Shown here one piece after another: positions 25,728-32,011 of a DNA stretch of 64,000 nt; the first letter of the stretch is position 1, and every line of letters begins with the position of its first letter. Location: assembly GCF_003994335.1 (NCBI RefSeq), contig NZ_PNQZ01000060.1, forward strand, positions 1-64,000, written 5' to 3'. The notes under the pieces were generated by a model, which was not told the DNA's origin, searched no databases, and saw only the letters and a program-made list of their open reading frames with translations. This DNA comes from Asaia sp. W19 (GTDB taxonomy: Bacteria; Pseudomonadota; Alphaproteobacteria; Acetobacterales; Acetobacteraceae). The position numbers and the translations under genes are program-made.

Positions 25728-27119
25728 TCACAAGGTCCGATCTTCCGGCGTGACCCCAAGCTGCTTGAGCTTGCGGTGCAGGGCACTGCGCTCCATCCCG
25801 ACGAAATTGGCCGTACGGCTGATATTGCCGCCAAAACGCAGAAGCTGCACCTGCAGATACTGCGTCTCGAACAGATCACGCGCCTCGCGCAACGGAAGCG
25901 CCATGACGTCAGCGCCGGCATCGAGCCGCGTCATTGAGGGCGCACCCTGGCTCACTGTACTCGGCAGCATGTCCGCCCGGATCAGATCCTGCCCGTTAGG
26001 CATCATGATCAGCAGGCGCTCCATCAGATTGCGCAGCTCGCGGATATTGCCGGGCCACTCATAGGATTGCAGCGCCGCCAGCGCATCCACGGACAGCTCT
26101 CTGGGGGCGAGACCGGCATTTTCCGCATAGCGAAGCAGGAAATGCTGGGCCAAAGCCGGAATATCCTCACGTCGCTCGCGCAAGGAAGGCAGACGCAAGG
26201 GCACCACGGCCAGACGATAATACAGATCCTCCCGGAACCGACCGAGAGAGATCTCGCCCTGCAGATCGCGATTGGTCGTGGCGATCACGCGCACATCGAC
26301 CTTCACCCGCGTGGAACCGCCCAGACGCTCGAAAGTCTGGTCCTGCAAGGCGCGCACGATCTTGCCCTGTGTCTCGAGTGGCATGTCCGCCACCTCGTCC
26401 AGAAGCAGCGTTCCCTTGTGGGCGCGCTCCAGAACACCCGTGCGGCGCATGGTCCCGTCGGACTGCCCCTCGATGCCGAAAAGCTCCTCCTCGAAGCGGT
26501 TCGGTGCGAGCGTTGCACAATTGAGGGCGATGAAGGGACCTGTGCCGCGTCTTGATCGAGCATGCACCATACGGGCCGCAATTTCCTTGCCCGATCCCGC
26601 TGGCCCCGTGATCAGCACCCGCGAGTTGGTAGGCGCCACGCGTTCGATCTGGCCACGCACGGCCGCAATACCCGGCCCCTCGCCAAAGAGCATGGTCTCA
26701 TTGCCCGAACGCAGGCGCAGCTCGGCATTCTCGCGCTCCAGACGGGCTGCCTGGAGGGCACGCTGCACCACGAGGATCAGTCGATCGGTCTGGAAGGGCT
26801 TTTCAATGAAATCATACGCGCCATGCTGCAGGCTCGATACGGCAGTTTCGATCGTGCCATGACCCGAGATCATCACCACAGGAAGCCCCGGCTCCTCCGC
26901 CTTGATGGTCCTGAGCAGATCGATCCCGTCCAGGCGCGAGCCCTGAAGCCAAATATCAAGGATCACAAGCGACGGGCGACGGGCCCTGAACGCTGCCAGA
27001 GCCTGGTCAGAATTGGCCGCCACGCGCGTCTCATAGCCTTCATCGCGAAGGAGTCCCTCGATGAGCAGCCGTATATCCGGCTCGTCATCGACGATCAGGA
27101 TTTCATGCTCCATGCGCAT
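25728..27119 (-). CDS. ntrX: NtrX-type response regulator
   Basis: Response regulator of 463 residues. Receiver domain 1-125 with phosphoacceptor Asp55 (LVILDIW); AAA+ domain about 145-380 with Walker A GPAGSGKE and Walker B LLLDEVAD; Fis-type HTH at the end (NISRTANFVGMERSALHRKL). The sigma-54-contacting GAFTGA loop is replaced (LFGIEGQSDGTMRR), as is usual for NtrX, so it probably works without sigma-54. It follows ntrY with a 14-base gap and is its likely partner, controlling nitrogen and envelope/redox responses in alphaproteobacteria. Confidence 0.95.
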   Translation of the reverse strand: MRMEHEILIVDDEPDIRLLIEGLLRDEGYETRVAANSDQALAAFRARRPSLVILDIWLQGSRLDGIDLLRTIKAEEPGLPVVMISGHGTIETAVSSLQHGAYDFIEKPFQTDRLILVVQRALQAARLERENAELRLRSGNETMLFGEGPGIAAVRGQIERVAPTNSRVLITGPAGSGKEIAARMVHARSRRGTGPFIALNCATLAPNRFEEELFGIEGQSDGTMRRTGVLERAHKGTLLLDEVADMPLETQGKIVRALQDQTFERLGGSTRVKVDVRVIATTNRDLQGEISLGRFREDLYYRLAVVPLRLPSLRERREDIPALAQHFLLRYAENAGLAPRELSVDALAALQSYEWPGNIRELRNLMERLLIMMPNGQDLIRADMLPSTVSQGAPSMTRLDAGADVMALPLREARDLFETQYLQVQLLRFGGNISRTANFVGMERSALHRKLKQLGVTPEDRTL

Positions 27120-27133
27120 CCCTCATCAGCCGT

Positions 27134-29755
27134 TCATTGCTCCTTGCCCGCTTCATCCAGTTCGGGGCTGCGATCACGCACAGGAAGGGTGAGCGTCGAG
27201 ACGGTACCCCGTCCGTCCGGTCGGTCCTCCAGCCTGATGCCACCTGCATGATCCTCCATGATCTTCTTGACGATCGCGAGCCCGAGCCCCGTCCCTTTCG
27301 GTTTGTGCGTGATATAAGGTTCCGTCAAGCGGTGCCGGTCAACTGATGGCAAACCAATGCCATCATCCACCACCTGAACGGCAGCCTCCCCCGCGTGAAT
27401 AGTCAGTGAAACCTGTATCCGTCCCAGTGTCTCACGCGGCTCTCCCGACAGCAGGGTCGGGTCTTCCTCTCGTTCCGAGGCGGCGACCATTGCAATCGCA
27501 TCGGCCGCATTCTGGAGCAGGTTGGTCAGGGCCTGGCCGATCAGGCGCCGGTCACACCGCACTATAGGCCCCTGGGGCGGAAGATACGTCGTGTCGAAAA
27601 CGATCTCCGGATGGGCGTTGCGCTGCAGGACGAGGGCTTCGCGCACCAGACGCGACAGATCCTCGTCACGCAGCACGGGCTGAGGCATGCGAGCGAAGGA
27701 CGAGAACTCATCGACCATGCGGCCGATATCGCCCACATGGCGCACGATCGTATCGACGCACTGGCCGAATGTCTCGGGATCGGAACTGATCTCGCGCAGA
27801 AAGCGCCGTTTGAGACGTTCGGCCGAGAGCTGGATAGGCGTAAGGGGGTTCTTGATCTCGTGAGCGATACGGCGTGCCACATCGGCCCAGGCTGCCTTTC
27901 TCTGGGCGGCCAGCAGGGCGGTAATATCATCGAAGGTCACGACATAGCCGGCTGAGTCATCGCTGCGCTGCTCGCCCACCACGCGCACGAGAAGCGTCCG
28001 CCCCGCACTCCCGACGCTCGGCCCTTCACCCAGAACCGCGCTTTTCTCCGGCGCATCGATCTGGATTTCATCTGTATGCGCCTCACCGGGCTCTGCCCGC
28101 GCGAGATCGAGCATCGTCGCGAATTCAGGCACCATGTCCCTTAACGGCTTGCCAATGACGGCATCCAGATCGCGCTGCAAAAGGCGGGCCGCTGCACGGT
28201 TGGGCAGTTCGATCACCTGATTTGCATCGAGTCCGATCACACCGGCAGACACGCCGGACAGAACCGTCTCGGTAAACCGACGACGCTCGTCGATCTGCTC
28301 ATAGGCAACCATCAGCTCCGTACGCTGGGTCGAAAGCTGATCCGTCATGCGGTTGAAGGCGCGGGACAATGTCCCCACTTCGTCATCGCGGCGCACATCA
28401 CGGGTCCTGGCTTCGGGAACCCGTACGCTCAGATCACCCTCGCTCACCCTCCTGGCAGCGAGAATCAGCAGGCCCAGTGGCTGGGTAATCTGCTTGGCCA
28501 GCACCAGACCCGTCAGCATGCCAATGCTCAGCACGAGCAGGGCAAGAAGCGCGAAGATCAGAACGAAGCTGATCTGGATGGCCGAGCGATGGGCGTTGAG
28601 ACGCTGATATTCGGACACGACGGCATCAGTGTGACGCATATGGTCAAGAATCTTGGCGTCGACTGGTCGTGTGATGACCAGCATGAGCCCCGAGCTTGGC
28701 CCCAGACTCACCACGGCGCGCACGGTGCGCTCATCGGGGCTGTCAAGAATGGCCACATCATTGGTGCGTGCCAGCGTCGTCGCATCCTTGGGAGGAAGCG
28801 CCAGCTGCTTGCCCTGCAGAGCGGCCAGACCGCCCGAAGCCACCACCTTGTTGGTATAGGAATCGAAAACGACCGCCTCGTTCAGTCCCCGCTCGGTCGC
28901 CTCCACATCGAGCATCATACCGAGTTGGCCCGGATCGCGCATGAGATCCACGCCGTGACGATACATCTCGTCGTTATTGGCGGTGATGATGATATTGGCC
29001 AGAGCGAAGGCCTCGGTGCGTATGTTGTCGTTATGCTCCTGCAGATAGCCTGCGGCCACATCCCGTGCCTCGGTCAGAGCTGTGTTCACCCGGTTCGAGA
29101 ACCAGATCTGGATGCCAAAATGGAAAAACAGGGCGGCCAGACCGCCGACCACCACCGTGGGGGCCACGGCCACCACACCGAAAAGCGTGATCAACCGCAC
29201 ATGGAGCCGTGCCCCGGCCAGACCGGTCCGGCGCTCGGCGAGCATCCTTCCGACCCGGATGATGACAGCGGCCCCCAGAAGCAGCAGCACGACAAAGTCG
29301 AGCAGGAAGACCAGCGACTCGATTTGAGGCCGGTAGGCGAAGGTCAGCCCGCGCGCGAGCACAACAAAGGTCGTCACAAGCAGGACGAGCGCCGCGCAGG
29401 CCAAGACCATGGCCGTTTTCAATCGCGTGATGCGGCGTATCACGCGCCGAAACGCCGTTTCGTCACCCGCCGGGCCAACATGGCCATTGCCAGAGCCTGC
29501 GAGCACCCTGTCGTCGTCTTCATCAAGAGGGTCGGTCTCAGCGTGGGAAGGGCGGGTATGGGAAGGCGCGGCATGTGAGGCATCTGATGTCGGGGCTTCC
29601 GGCGATAAGTCACCCGAGGACAGATGACCCTCGCCGTGATCGGTCTGAGAATTCCGGGACATCGTCCGCTCGTCAACTGCAGCGCCGGAACGCTGATCGT
29701 CATCGGCGCTCTGATGGCCCCGGGTTCGCGCGAAAATCTCCCGGTTTCCTGTCAT
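27134..29755 (-). CDS. ntrY: NtrY-type membrane sensor histidine kinase
   Basis: Sensor kinase of 873 residues. The first 100 are a disordered acidic/His-rich stretch, longer than usual; then transmembrane segments near 112-135, 143-165 and 185-215, a periplasmic loop, a further TM near 390-415, HAMP, PAS (about 505-620), and the kinase core with AHEIKNPLTPIQLSAERL and the ATP lid KGTGLGLAIVKKI. Its ATG overlaps the stop of the degenerate NtrC gene (ATGA), indicating coupling. If the long N-terminus is not translated, an ATG at 29662 is available. Confidence 0.95.
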   Translation of the reverse strand: MTGNREIFARTRGHQSADDDQRSGAAVDERTMSRNSQTDHGEGHLSSGDLSPEAPTSDASHAAPSHTRPSHAETDPLDEDDDRVLAGSGNGHVGPAGDETAFRRVIRRITRLKTAMVLACAALVLLVTTFVVLARGLTFAYRPQIESLVFLLDFVVLLLLGAAVIIRVGRMLAERRTGLAGARLHVRLITLFGVVAVAPTVVVGGLAALFFHFGIQIWFSNRVNTALTEARDVAAGYLQEHNDNIRTEAFALANIIITANNDEMYRHGVDLMRDPGQLGMMLDVEATERGLNEAVVFDSYTNKVVASGGLAALQGKQLALPPKDATTLARTNDVAILDSPDERTVRAVVSLGPSSGLMLVITRPVDAKILDHMRHTDAVVSEYQRLNAHRSAIQISFVLIFALLALLVLSIGMLTGLVLAKQITQPLGLLILAARRVSEGDLSVRVPEARTRDVRRDDEVGTLSRAFNRMTDQLSTQRTELMVAYEQIDERRRFTETVLSGVSAGVIGLDANQVIELPNRAAARLLQRDLDAVIGKPLRDMVPEFATMLDLARAEPGEAHTDEIQIDAPEKSAVLGEGPSVGSAGRTLLVRVVGEQRSDDSAGYVVTFDDITALLAAQRKAAWADVARRIAHEIKNPLTPIQLSAERLKRRFLREISSDPETFGQCVDTIVRHVGDIGRMVDEFSSFARMPQPVLRDEDLSRLVREALVLQRNAHPEIVFDTTYLPPQGPIVRCDRRLIGQALTNLLQNAADAIAMVAASEREEDPTLLSGEPRETLGRIQVSLTIHAGEAAVQVVDDGIGLPSVDRHRLTEPYITHKPKGTGLGLAIVKKIMEDHAGGIRLEDRPDGRGTVSTLTLPVRDRSPELDEAGKEQ

Positions 29756-30720
29756 GAGCGCGACCGTCCTGCCTCTATTCCGAGGCTTTGCAAACGCTTG
29801 CGCAGCGTATTGCGGTTAATACCAAGCAGGGCCGCGGCCCGGATCTGGTTGCCATCCGTCGCCTTGAGCACCAGCCTGAACAGGGGGCGCTCCACTTCGG
29901 CCATAACACGCGCATGGAGTGAGCCCTGGATATCGGTCTCCAGATCCAGCATGGAAGGCAGATAGCGCGCCATCAATCCCTGAAATGACGCCGCATCGGG
30001 GGTCGCATCGATGCGATGCAGTTCTGCGAGCCGCGCAGCCGTAACGATATTGCCCCGCCTGTCTTCAGAGGCATGATGCAACAACTGCCTGATTTGCCGG
30101 AAATTGCCAGGCCAATCCTGCCGGGCGAGCCAGGGCACCGTATCATCGTGCAGAGCCAGACCCGTATCGACCTGCCCCACCCAGACGGCGCACAACGCGC
30201 TCAGATCCTCACGTCTTTCGCGTGCCGGGGGAACAGAAACACAATGCGGCGCCAGCATCGCCCCCAAAAGCGTACTGAGACGGCGGTCCTGCACCAGACG
30301 CGCGGGAGTCCATGAGCTCGTACAGATCAACGCAGGCCGCTCTGCAGCAGGCTTGCACTCGATGAGGTTGTGCAGCGCCGACTGGAGAGCGGGCTCGCTC
30401 ATCCCGATTTCGTTGATAAACAGGCAGGAAACGCCCTCATCCTGCAACGCCTCTTCAAGCGAGAGCCGATCAATGACCGGGACAAACCTCCCGGGACGGG
30501 ACGAATGCGTCCAGAGATACCGGGCAGCACGGGTTCTGCCACTGCCCTGCTCACCCACCAGCACATGCAGACCAAATTCAGAAAGGCTGGAATCGAGCCC
30601 GTCGCGTAATTGCCTCACGGCGTCCGACTGGCCATCGAAACCAAGACTGGCTGGCGCTCTCATCTGGGGAGCGACCGATCCGCTCTGTTCGGCGCCGGGC
30701 AGGGTCGGGGCCGCTCTCAC
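29752..30720 (-). CDS. Degenerate NtrC-like protein lacking receiver and ATPase residues
   Basis: A 322-residue relative of NtrC, against about 470-480 for the family. No receiver domain is present. The AAA+ remnant has GEQGSGRT (56-63), where the Walker A Lys is Arg62, and CLFINEIG (99-106), where the Walker B Asp is Asn103. Only about 36 residues separate the two motifs against about 70 normally, so the GAFTGA segment is missing. The later LARQDWPGNFRQIRQLLHH and a Fis-type HTH (NQIRAAALLGINRNTLRKRL) are intact. It sits where ntrC sits in relatives, between dusB and ntrY, with no ntrB. It may survive as a DNA-binding protein without activator function. Confidence 0.85.
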   Translation of the reverse strand: MRAAPTLPGAEQSGSVAPQMRAPASLGFDGQSDAVRQLRDGLDSSLSEFGLHVLVGEQGSGRTRAARYLWTHSSRPGRFVPVIDRLSLEEALQDEGVSCLFINEIGMSEPALQSALHNLIECKPAAERPALICTSSWTPARLVQDRRLSTLLGAMLAPHCVSVPPARERREDLSALCAVWVGQVDTGLALHDDTVPWLARQDWPGNFRQIRQLLHHASEDRRGNIVTAARLAELHRIDATPDAASFQGLMARYLPSMLDLETDIQGSLHARVMAEVERPLFRLVLKATDGNQIRAAALLGINRNTLRKRLQSLGIEAGRSRS

Positions 30721-30791: not shown

Positions 30792-31886
30792 TCAGGCGGC
30801 TTCTTCGACCGTTTCGGGACGCTGATGCGTCGACTCCCTGTCGCGTATGACACCCTGAGCGATCTGCTGATCGTAAAACGCCGTGAGATGGGCAATCACG
30901 TCCTGCGCCTGATCCATCTTGTTGATGCTGGCGCGAAACGCAGCCGATCCGGGCAGGCCGTGCGAGTACCAGGACACATGCTTGCGTGCGAGACGCAGAC
31001 CTGGGCGCTCACCGAAATGGTCGAGCATCATGCCGTAATGACGCAGCACGATCGCTTTTTCAGTTGTCAGATCGGGGTCGGGCATATTTTCGCCGGTACG
31101 CAACGACTGCGCGACCTGGGCCAGGAACCAGGGACGGCCGTAGCAGCCGCGCCCGATCATTACGCCATCGGCACCGGAAGCCGCGAGGGCATCGCGCGCA
31201 TTCTGGATCGAGACGATATCGCCATTGACGATCACAGGCAGCTTCACGCTTTCCTTGACCGTGCGCACGAAATGCCAGTCAGCCGTCCCGTTATAGAACA
31301 TCTGTCGCGTGCGCCCATGCACGGTCACCAAGCGAATTCCCACCTCTTCCGCGATACGCGCGAGGCGGGGAGCGTTCAACGACTGATGATCCCAGCCCAT
31401 GCGCATCTTGAGCGTGACGGGCACTGAAACCGCCTTGACGGTCGCCTCGAGCAGCGCTGCCGCCTTGACCTCATCCCGCATCAGGGCCGAACCAGCCGAC
31501 TGGCCGACCGCTACCTTCTTCACGGGGCAGCCGAAATTGATGTCGATGAGATCAGCGCCCTGATCGACGGCGATCCTGGCCGCCTGGGCCATGGCCTCAG
31601 GGTCGCACCCGGCGAGCTGAACGGAGTTGGGGCCGTTCTCAGCACTGCGGGCCATACGCAGCGTGTTCTCGTTCTCACGCACCATGGCCCAGGAGGCGAT
31701 CATCTCGGAAACGACCAGTCCCGCCCCGAGCTCACGGGCCAGCTGACGGAAGGGCAGATCCGTCACACCCGACATCGGCGCCAGAATGACCGGCGTCTCG
31801 ATCACCACCCCGTTGCCGAGGTCGATAGGGCGTAGGTGGAGGCCGCGGCTCGAGACAGCCTCGTCGGGAAGAGATGAATGGGTCAT
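30792..31886 (-). CDS. dusB: tRNA-dihydrouridine synthase B
   Basis: FMN-dependent TIM-barrel enzyme (NifR3/DusB) reducing uridine in tRNA D-loops. Evidence: [20 protein letters not shown], catalytic Cys in [20 protein letters not shown] (in two parts INFGCPVKK and GQSAGSAL), [11 protein letters not shown] and [16 protein letters not shown] choose the ATG at 31886 (364 residues, MTHSSLPDE); the frame extends to 31946 but those residues are unlike the family. In alphaproteobacteria dusB heads the ntrBC-ntrYX block; here only 71 bases separate it from the degenerate ntrC, with ntrB missing. Confidence 0.94.
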
Positions 31887-32011
31887 GATCGGCCAAGGAT
31901 ACCGAGGCGTCCCGGGCGAAGCAATCAGAGATCGTTGAGACCACACGCATCCCGATCGATGCGCTCATCAGGGACATGGATGGGGCCGGAATGCCCCCGA
32001 TACCCAAGCGT

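Follow-up and report, generated by a model that had tools for sequence, protein, structure and literature searches.

A receiver-less NtrC remnant between dusB and ntrY in Asaia, and graded forms of NtrC at the same locus in other acetic acid bacteria

What is left of a two-component regulator when its partner kinase, its receiver and its working ATPase have gone, and does the cell still have use for it? This question is raised by a gene of Asaia sp. W19 that lies in a stretch of 64,000 nucleotides (contig NZ_PNQZ01000060.1, positions 1 to 64,000, hereafter the window). Between dusB upstream and ntrY-ntrX downstream, in the position orthologous to that of NtrC, the window carries an open reading frame (29752..30720, minus strand) which starts with GTG, runs through 322 codons and ends in a TGA that overlaps the ATG of ntrY as ATGA. 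With moderate confidence, we read its product as an NtrC-descended dimeric DNA-binding regulator that acts without phosphorylation, ATP hydrolysis or sigma-54. Partner kinase, receiver, sigma-54 contact loop and catalytic ATPase residues, all of which the classical NtrC mechanism requires, are gone.

The protein is a strongly reduced NtrC. A Pfam scan detected HTH_8 (44.3 bits), Sigma54_activ_2 (37.5 bits) and AAA_lid_14 (27.1 bits) but no Response_reg, and the frame upstream of the gene runs directly into dusB. Residues 30-165 (30226..30633, minus strand) form a degenerate AAA+ core, shortened and devoid of the GAFTGA loop according to domain scan, alignment and predicted structure. They are followed by a remnant of the AAA lid (residues 166-240, 30001..30225, minus strand; AAA_lid_14 match and predicted structure) and by Fis-type dimerisation helices with a helix-turn-helix (HTH) motif (residues 245-315, 29776..29988, minus strand), the best conserved part of the whole series described below. 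Translation and alignment place the Walker A remnant, GEQGSGRT, at 30532..30555 and the Walker B remnant, LFINEIG, at 30403..30423 (both on the minus strand); the catalytic lysine of the former is changed to arginine and the catalytic aspartate of the latter to asparagine (A. bogorensis GD-01 has LFIGEIG). In alignment with canonical relatives, the GAFTGA loop is deleted and the two Walker motifs are 36 residues apart instead of 60, or 50 instead of 74 when both motifs are counted in. An earlier note, made from the letters of this DNA, had described both substitutions, the missing receiver and sigma-54 loop, the retained Fis-type HTH and the ATGA overlap; translation and Pfam confirm them all. 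Its spacing of 36 residues is likewise correct, while the "about 70" it gave for comparison has to be replaced by 60.

Neither of the obvious family models accepts the protein. It scores 76 bits with TIGR01818 (NtrC; cut-off 558.6) and 53.1 bits with NF001659 (Fis; cut-off 99), and with 322 residues including an AAA remnant it is not of Fis size (about 100 residues). We are unsure of its start codon, because residues 1-23 are little conserved and mostly modelled with a low predicted local distance difference test score (pLDDT); use of the ATG at codon 20 would shorten the protein to 303 residues.

The note had also claimed that ntrB is absent, and this holds well beyond the window. At E 1e-20, NtrB was found in none of the 24 genomes of the receiver-less clade, including that of the window, the single match (in G069) lying in the ntrY frame. 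A search of the window's genome for sigma-54-type ATPases did not reveal a second NtrC, the remaining strong candidates being NtrX (without GAFTGA), PspF with GAFTGA (above its NCBIfam cut-off) and an RtcR-like protein (469 of 650 bits). Asaia G006, whose genome is a single contig, gives the same picture, with just two matches, the ntrC-remnant gene and NtrX. Thus the genome search that the note had proposed brought no intact ntrBC to light in the window's genome, in other Asaia or in the receiver-less clade, and we reject this possibility. Might a sequencing or assembly error conceal a normal, full-length ntrC? The window's assembly consists of 228 contigs with 8% contamination, which is the only circumstance in favour of such an error; no positive evidence for it was found. 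The same form occupies the same place in independent genomes of other Asaia species and of Swaminathania, and upstream of the gene one meets dusB, not a receiver domain. An error of this kind is therefore extraordinarily improbable, and we discard it.

Is the gene under selection? It is present in all eight other Asaia genomes searched, its nearest named relative being that of A. krungthepensis (88% identity), and its frame is intact in seven of nine Asaia genomes when the window's is counted. The two broken copies are those of G007 and A. platycodi (G008), both of them draft genomes. A. platycodi breaks dusB as well, and A. prunellae breaks both dusB and ntrX while its own ntrC-remnant copy is whole, so the break in A. 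platycodi is likely a draft error; this argument covers A. platycodi, the neighbouring genes of G007 being outside the comparison. Between A. bogorensis GD-01 and the closely related G006 (98% identity in this protein) the gene differs by 39 synonymous and 5 nonsynonymous changes (Fisher p 3.6e-19), distributed as 15 and 2 over the AAA part, 14 and 3 over the lid, and 10 and 0 over the Fis unit. Synonymous divergence (dS) is saturated against more distant Asaia species, which makes the ratio of nonsynonymous to synonymous rates (omega) unreliable there, so selection is read from this one pair only; in this pair, purifying selection is strong. The note's proposed test of dN/dS thus gives a result far from neutral and, together with the retained frame and the lack of an intact ntrBC elsewhere, bears out its statement that this is not a simple pseudogene.

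The part most strongly retained by selection is the Fis-type unit at the C-terminus, composed of two dimerisation helices and the HTH. When 12 chosen canonical sequences are set against 20 eroded ones, the AAA core drops in mean pairwise identity from 0.90 to 0.31, the HTH only from 0.88 to 0.76. Across 39 sequences (a set without the one row that holds the Fis unit alone) 17 columns are invariant, and 15 of them belong to the Fis unit; the HTH residues NRNTLRK are invariant in 40 sequences. These data bear on another explanation, that the gene is decaying and nearly useless, its frame being kept mainly through translational coupling to ntrY. The AAA core does evolve fast, two Asaia drafts are frameshifted, and the gene has been lost in G061, G147 and G098, so it is dispensable somewhere. 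Coupling, however, would hold the frame and not the amino acids, in conflict with the excess of synonymous changes in the whole gene and with the unchanged Fis unit; the constancy of NRNTLRK speaks against it too, and one of the two frameshifted drafts also breaks dusB. We consider useless decay very unlikely.

Next, we asked where in the family the reduction took place. The dusB-ntrX region was taken from 60 chosen genomes of the family and from seven named loci (six Asaia and Swaminathania). A full-length ntrC with GAFTGA was present in 34 of the 60 genomes. In eight (G021, G062, G072, G092, G105, G148, G153, the last a Commensalibacter, and G173) receiver and ATPase are kept and GAFTGA is lost or changed. 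Receiver-less forms without NtrB were found in 13 genomes: five have 319-326 residues (Kozakia G030, G078, G157, G111 and G069), and are joined by Asaia and Swaminathania (309 residues), and eight have 247-277 residues (G064, G086, G093, G102, G132, G149, G162 and the Aristophania genome G167). One genome, G033, encodes a Fis-like protein of 95 residues, and three have no gene at all between dusB and ntrY (G061; G147, an ant-associated member of Acetobacteraceae; G098, a Formicincola). Wherever the gene survives in this series, the HTH survives. A further genome, G080 (L128:1628-4981), contains ntrB and ntrC of full length with open frames and altered motifs, a pseudo two-component system: its NtrC is devoid of both Walker residues and GAFTGA, its receiver (19.8 of 30.2 bits) stays under the Pfam cut-off, and its NtrB, read by eye, has RGVRNPL at the expected phospho-histidine motif. 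We also noticed changed sigma-54 loops, GAFSGA and GAFAGA, in otherwise intact-looking NtrCs at L130 (G092), L135 (G105) and L168 (G173).

These states were mapped, as the note had suggested, on a tree of 45 rows built from DusB, NtrY and NtrX without use of NtrC itself; we coded the states and counted the fewest changes. In it G017, with a full NtrC, is followed by G080 and then by a clade of 25 rows in which every receiver-less, Fis-only and absent state is found (support 94 in the Shimodaira-Hasegawa-like approximate likelihood ratio test; 100 when G080 is added). The receiver is lost once, GAFTGA four times, the Walker A lysine four times, the Walker B aspartate five times and rpoN seven times; by the same count, the change of the Walker A lysine to arginine arose separately in G080, in G078/G157 and in Asaia. 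The most economical history places the loss of receiver and ntrB at the base of this larger clade of acetic acid bacteria and makes the Walker changes of Asaia recent. The latter postdate the split from the sister genus Swaminathania, since the S. salitolerans protein (57% identity, 309 residues, short form) still has GETGTGKT and ILLDEIG. In Kozakia baliensis (G030; 39% identity) both Walker motifs of the short form are intact as well. The note's picture of a decayed NtrC without ntrB therefore stands, except that this loss is not specific to Asaia: only the Walker changes are recent there.

Did sigma-54 disappear before NtrC decayed? Of 150 genomes of the family, 123 gave an rpoN match, Asaia included, so the decay of NtrC here did not depend on prior loss of sigma-54; in Asaia, PspF with its GAFTGA remains to use it. 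For seven of the eight full-length NtrCs lacking GAFTGA, the genome gave no rpoN match (in G153 and G173 by elimination). Two exceptions to this pairing were seen, G092 (GAFSGA with rpoN present) and G166 (locus L166; GAFTGA without rpoN match, by elimination).

The promoter of glnK-amtB has changed alongside. A sigma-54-like site matching at least 10 of 12 positions precedes glnK-amtB in all 12 chosen canonical genomes, seven of which score 11 or 12, and in 3 of 18 genomes of the eroded clade, none above 10; random 302-mers reach at least 10 in about 2-3%. The eroded rows are not independent, as six of the 18 are Asaia. The comparison leaves aside the second amtB copy of G074 (8 of 12), G166 (7) and G080 (8), the full-length rows without GAFTGA (G105, 10; G173, 9; G092, 8) and loci where no glnK was found beside amtB, among them G069, G086, G162, G061, G147, G098, G100 and G109. 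Judged from these scores, the glnK promoter of the receiver-less clade has lost its sigma-54-like site. Before glnK-amtB the clade has another element, TTGCCAAnnTCGTTnTGAAACTGGCACGA, with the core TCGT-N12-ACGA, whose right-hand half overlaps the former sigma-54 -24 box. It lies upstream of glnK at G000 C193:12654-12673 and at L221, L225, L227-L231, L235 and L236. A 29-bp form with 26 fixed positions is common to the nine genomes examined of Asaia (six), Swaminathania, Kozakia and G033, and most others match 18-22 of the 26. It occurs in genomes where rpoN is unmatched as well; the element was spotted by looking, and the consensus was built from the same sequences that score 26 of 26. Because it occurs about once per genome, the element may not be an operator for the NtrC remnant but a promoter. 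Perfect NtrC sites of the E. coli type were found in none of 22 glnK upstream regions.

How would such a protein work? In the mechanism we propose, the remnant would bind NtrC/Fis-type sites as a dimer and be always on, its level being set through expression of the dusB-ntrC-ntrYX operon. Its targets would be sigma-70 promoters or the local shape of the DNA, and it would serve as a repressor, a helper or a bending factor; as the note suggested, it may serve NtrYX. The AAA remnant is probably a folded spacer, dead as an ATPase and itself on the way to being lost; in relatives it has been trimmed away until a protein of Fis size was left, or the whole gene is gone. In favour of this mechanism are the anatomy of the protein, the graded series at one locus, the conservation of the Fis unit under purifying selection, the loss of the sigma-54-like site before glnK and the precedent of Caulobacter NtrC described below.

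Several observations weigh against this proposal. No regulon was found: in 16 genomes the glnK element has 14 sites, spread over 13 of them (a reversed control pattern gave one match each in 7 of the 16), and by coordinates 13 of the 14 are those at glnK-amtB. Swaminathania and Kozakia still have both Walker motifs intact. Two of the invariant columns, G56 in Walker A and R169, fall outside the Fis unit, and in the single usable pair the AAA remnant is under purifying selection too. AlphaFold models the AAA core with confidence, as it does the lid and the HTH (mean pLDDT 85.8, predicted template modelling score 0.67), though canonical NtrCs in the alignment may prop the core up. Finally, a canonical relative's C-terminus gives the better match to wild-type E. 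coli Fis (8.7e-14, against 2.9e-11 for that of the window's protein).

Given purifying selection and a confident predicted core, the AAA remnant may still do something. Like degenerate relatives such as FleQ or VpsR, as is said of them, it might bind a nucleotide, or a partner such as NtrX or NtrY, with no hydrolysis involved; the protein would then be a sigma-70 regulator under the control of that domain. The ratio of 15 synonymous to 2 nonsynonymous changes, the loop G-x-x-G-S-G-R-T in every Asaia row, the two invariant residues, and the nearest solved folds of the model, which include Brucella NtrX, ZraR and FleQ, are all in keeping with this, and so is the overlap of the ntrC stop with the ntrY start. 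Yet identity of the AAA core among eroded genera is 0.27, no higher than to canonical NtrC, the Walker A lysine was lost on four separate occasions, and in G033 the domain has vanished completely. On balance, we find a working AAA remnant unlikely, and prefer the constitutive DNA-binding regulator.

As to its C-terminal unit, the best solved relative by sequence is E. coli Fis, and the solved NtrC DNA-binding domain 1ntc is a far weaker match to the C-termini of both the window's protein and the canonical relative. As the canonical C-terminus matches Fis more strongly, likeness to Fis is ancestral and was not gained; the idea that the Asaia HTH evolved towards Fis is unsupported. The 95-residue protein of G033 is closer to Fis than the Asaia protein is (62.7 against 53.1 bits with NF001659). 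It is predicted to fold into four helices (pLDDT 84.0), and the first 31 rows of its Foldseek search are all Fis of E. coli or Pseudomonas, though only one of them has E under 0.001. It is of Fis length, as are other short forms, and falls below the Fis cut-off of 99 bits, as does L188 (70.6).

Short forms are not confined to acetic acid bacteria. A search of the class with the canonical C-terminal unit gave matches in 188 of 241 genomes; 32 of these, belonging to 23 family codes, carry the unit in a frame shorter than 150 residues (G307, with a frame of 81 residues, is outside this count). Of the short loci, 23 were read: a dusB match lies in the 1.5-kb flank of 22, and both dusB and ntrY accompany 16. 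Several alphaproteobacterial families whose genomes are small thus have the order dusB, Fis-like reading frame of about 90-150 residues, ntrY (at L180-L184 and at the short members of L187-L214). Short and long states change six times on the best class-wide tree, a best-tree figure, given that 29 of its 68 inner branches lack resolution; 8 of 79 loci had too little data to be included, and 40 long loci were labelled long from their frames. The trees firmly indicate a separate origin only for the short form of G033, nested within acetic acid bacteria. Plasmid copies of the ntrC-remnant gene were not detected: among the matches listed, 299 records, every one is below 60% identity.

Put together, these data prompt a wider proposal, which we advance tentatively: the dusB-ntrC-ntrYX locus of Alphaproteobacteria may repeatedly turn NtrC Fis-like, first by decay of kinase and receiver, then of the ATPase residues, then of the AAA domain, until only a free DNA-binding dimer of Fis type is left next to dusB, and Asaia would be a frozen intermediate of the route from NtrC to Fis proposed in 1998. 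Fis of gammaproteobacteria has a C-terminal unit like that of the Asaia protein, which differs in its attached AAA remnant and in preceding ntrYX; in E. coli, fis too adjoins dusB. Canonical NtrC (NR(I)) shares position, operon partners and the C-terminal unit with the Asaia protein and has what the latter lacks: receiver, NtrB, GAFTGA and catalytic Walker residues. FleQ and VpsR also have a degenerate enhancer-binding fold and do not work through sigma-54 in the usual way; they differ from the Asaia protein in N-terminal domains, ligands and loci. Fold and sequence matches to such proteins were observed here.

The nearest experimental parallel, described in PMC10274813, is NtrC of Caulobacter, which like that of Rhodobacter capsulatus is an alphaproteobacterial protein with the same loss of GAFTGA. 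Caulobacter NtrC is reported there to regulate sigma-70 promoters, to have a Fis-related motif and to share 37 of 51 sites with the nucleoid protein GapR; it keeps NtrB, receiver and the Walker residues it needs, and R. capsulatus NtrC requires ATP binding, whereas Asaia has lost NtrB, receiver and catalytic residues. Morett and Bork proposed in 1998 that Fis descends from NtrC, as cited in PMC7166090 and PMC7482072. In two further papers, complete NtrBC and NtrYX are listed for Acetobacter pasteurianus (PMC5017713) and the sigma-54 regulon is treated generally (PMC12316311). Among the papers listed by a literature search, mostly without subscription papers, none dealt with an erosion of NtrC in acetic acid bacteria or with the order dusB-fis-ntrY in Alphaproteobacteria. 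NtrC without GAFTGA and Fis from NtrC are known ideas, whereas graded intermediates at the dusB-ntrYX locus were named in none of the papers listed.

The neighbouring genes, all on the minus strand, are identified by their family matches: dusB (30792..31946; TIGR00737, 386 bits, cut-off 293), the sensor kinase gene ntrY (27134..29755; NtrY_N match), whose start overlaps the ntrC stop, and the response regulator gene ntrX (25728..27119; NF051870, 691 bits, cut-off 600). The window's NtrX keeps receiver and Walker motifs and has no GAFTGA. Of four genes compared in Asaia, ntrX evolves slowest (omega 0.01-0.03, with dS mostly about 1 or above).

The conversion of a switchable, ATP-driven activator into a constitutive DNA-binding or nucleoid protein has so far been a proposal about one ancient event, the origin of Fis from NtrC. 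Here, intermediates exist in living, cultured acetic acid bacteria, ordered on a tree and at the same genetic address, and therefore the order of domain loss, promoter change and change of function becomes testable. In these genera, a gene annotated as NtrC or as a sigma-54 regulator should not be assumed to mediate a nitrogen response. If the wider proposal is true, the suggested route to Fis could be replayed and tested in living relatives.

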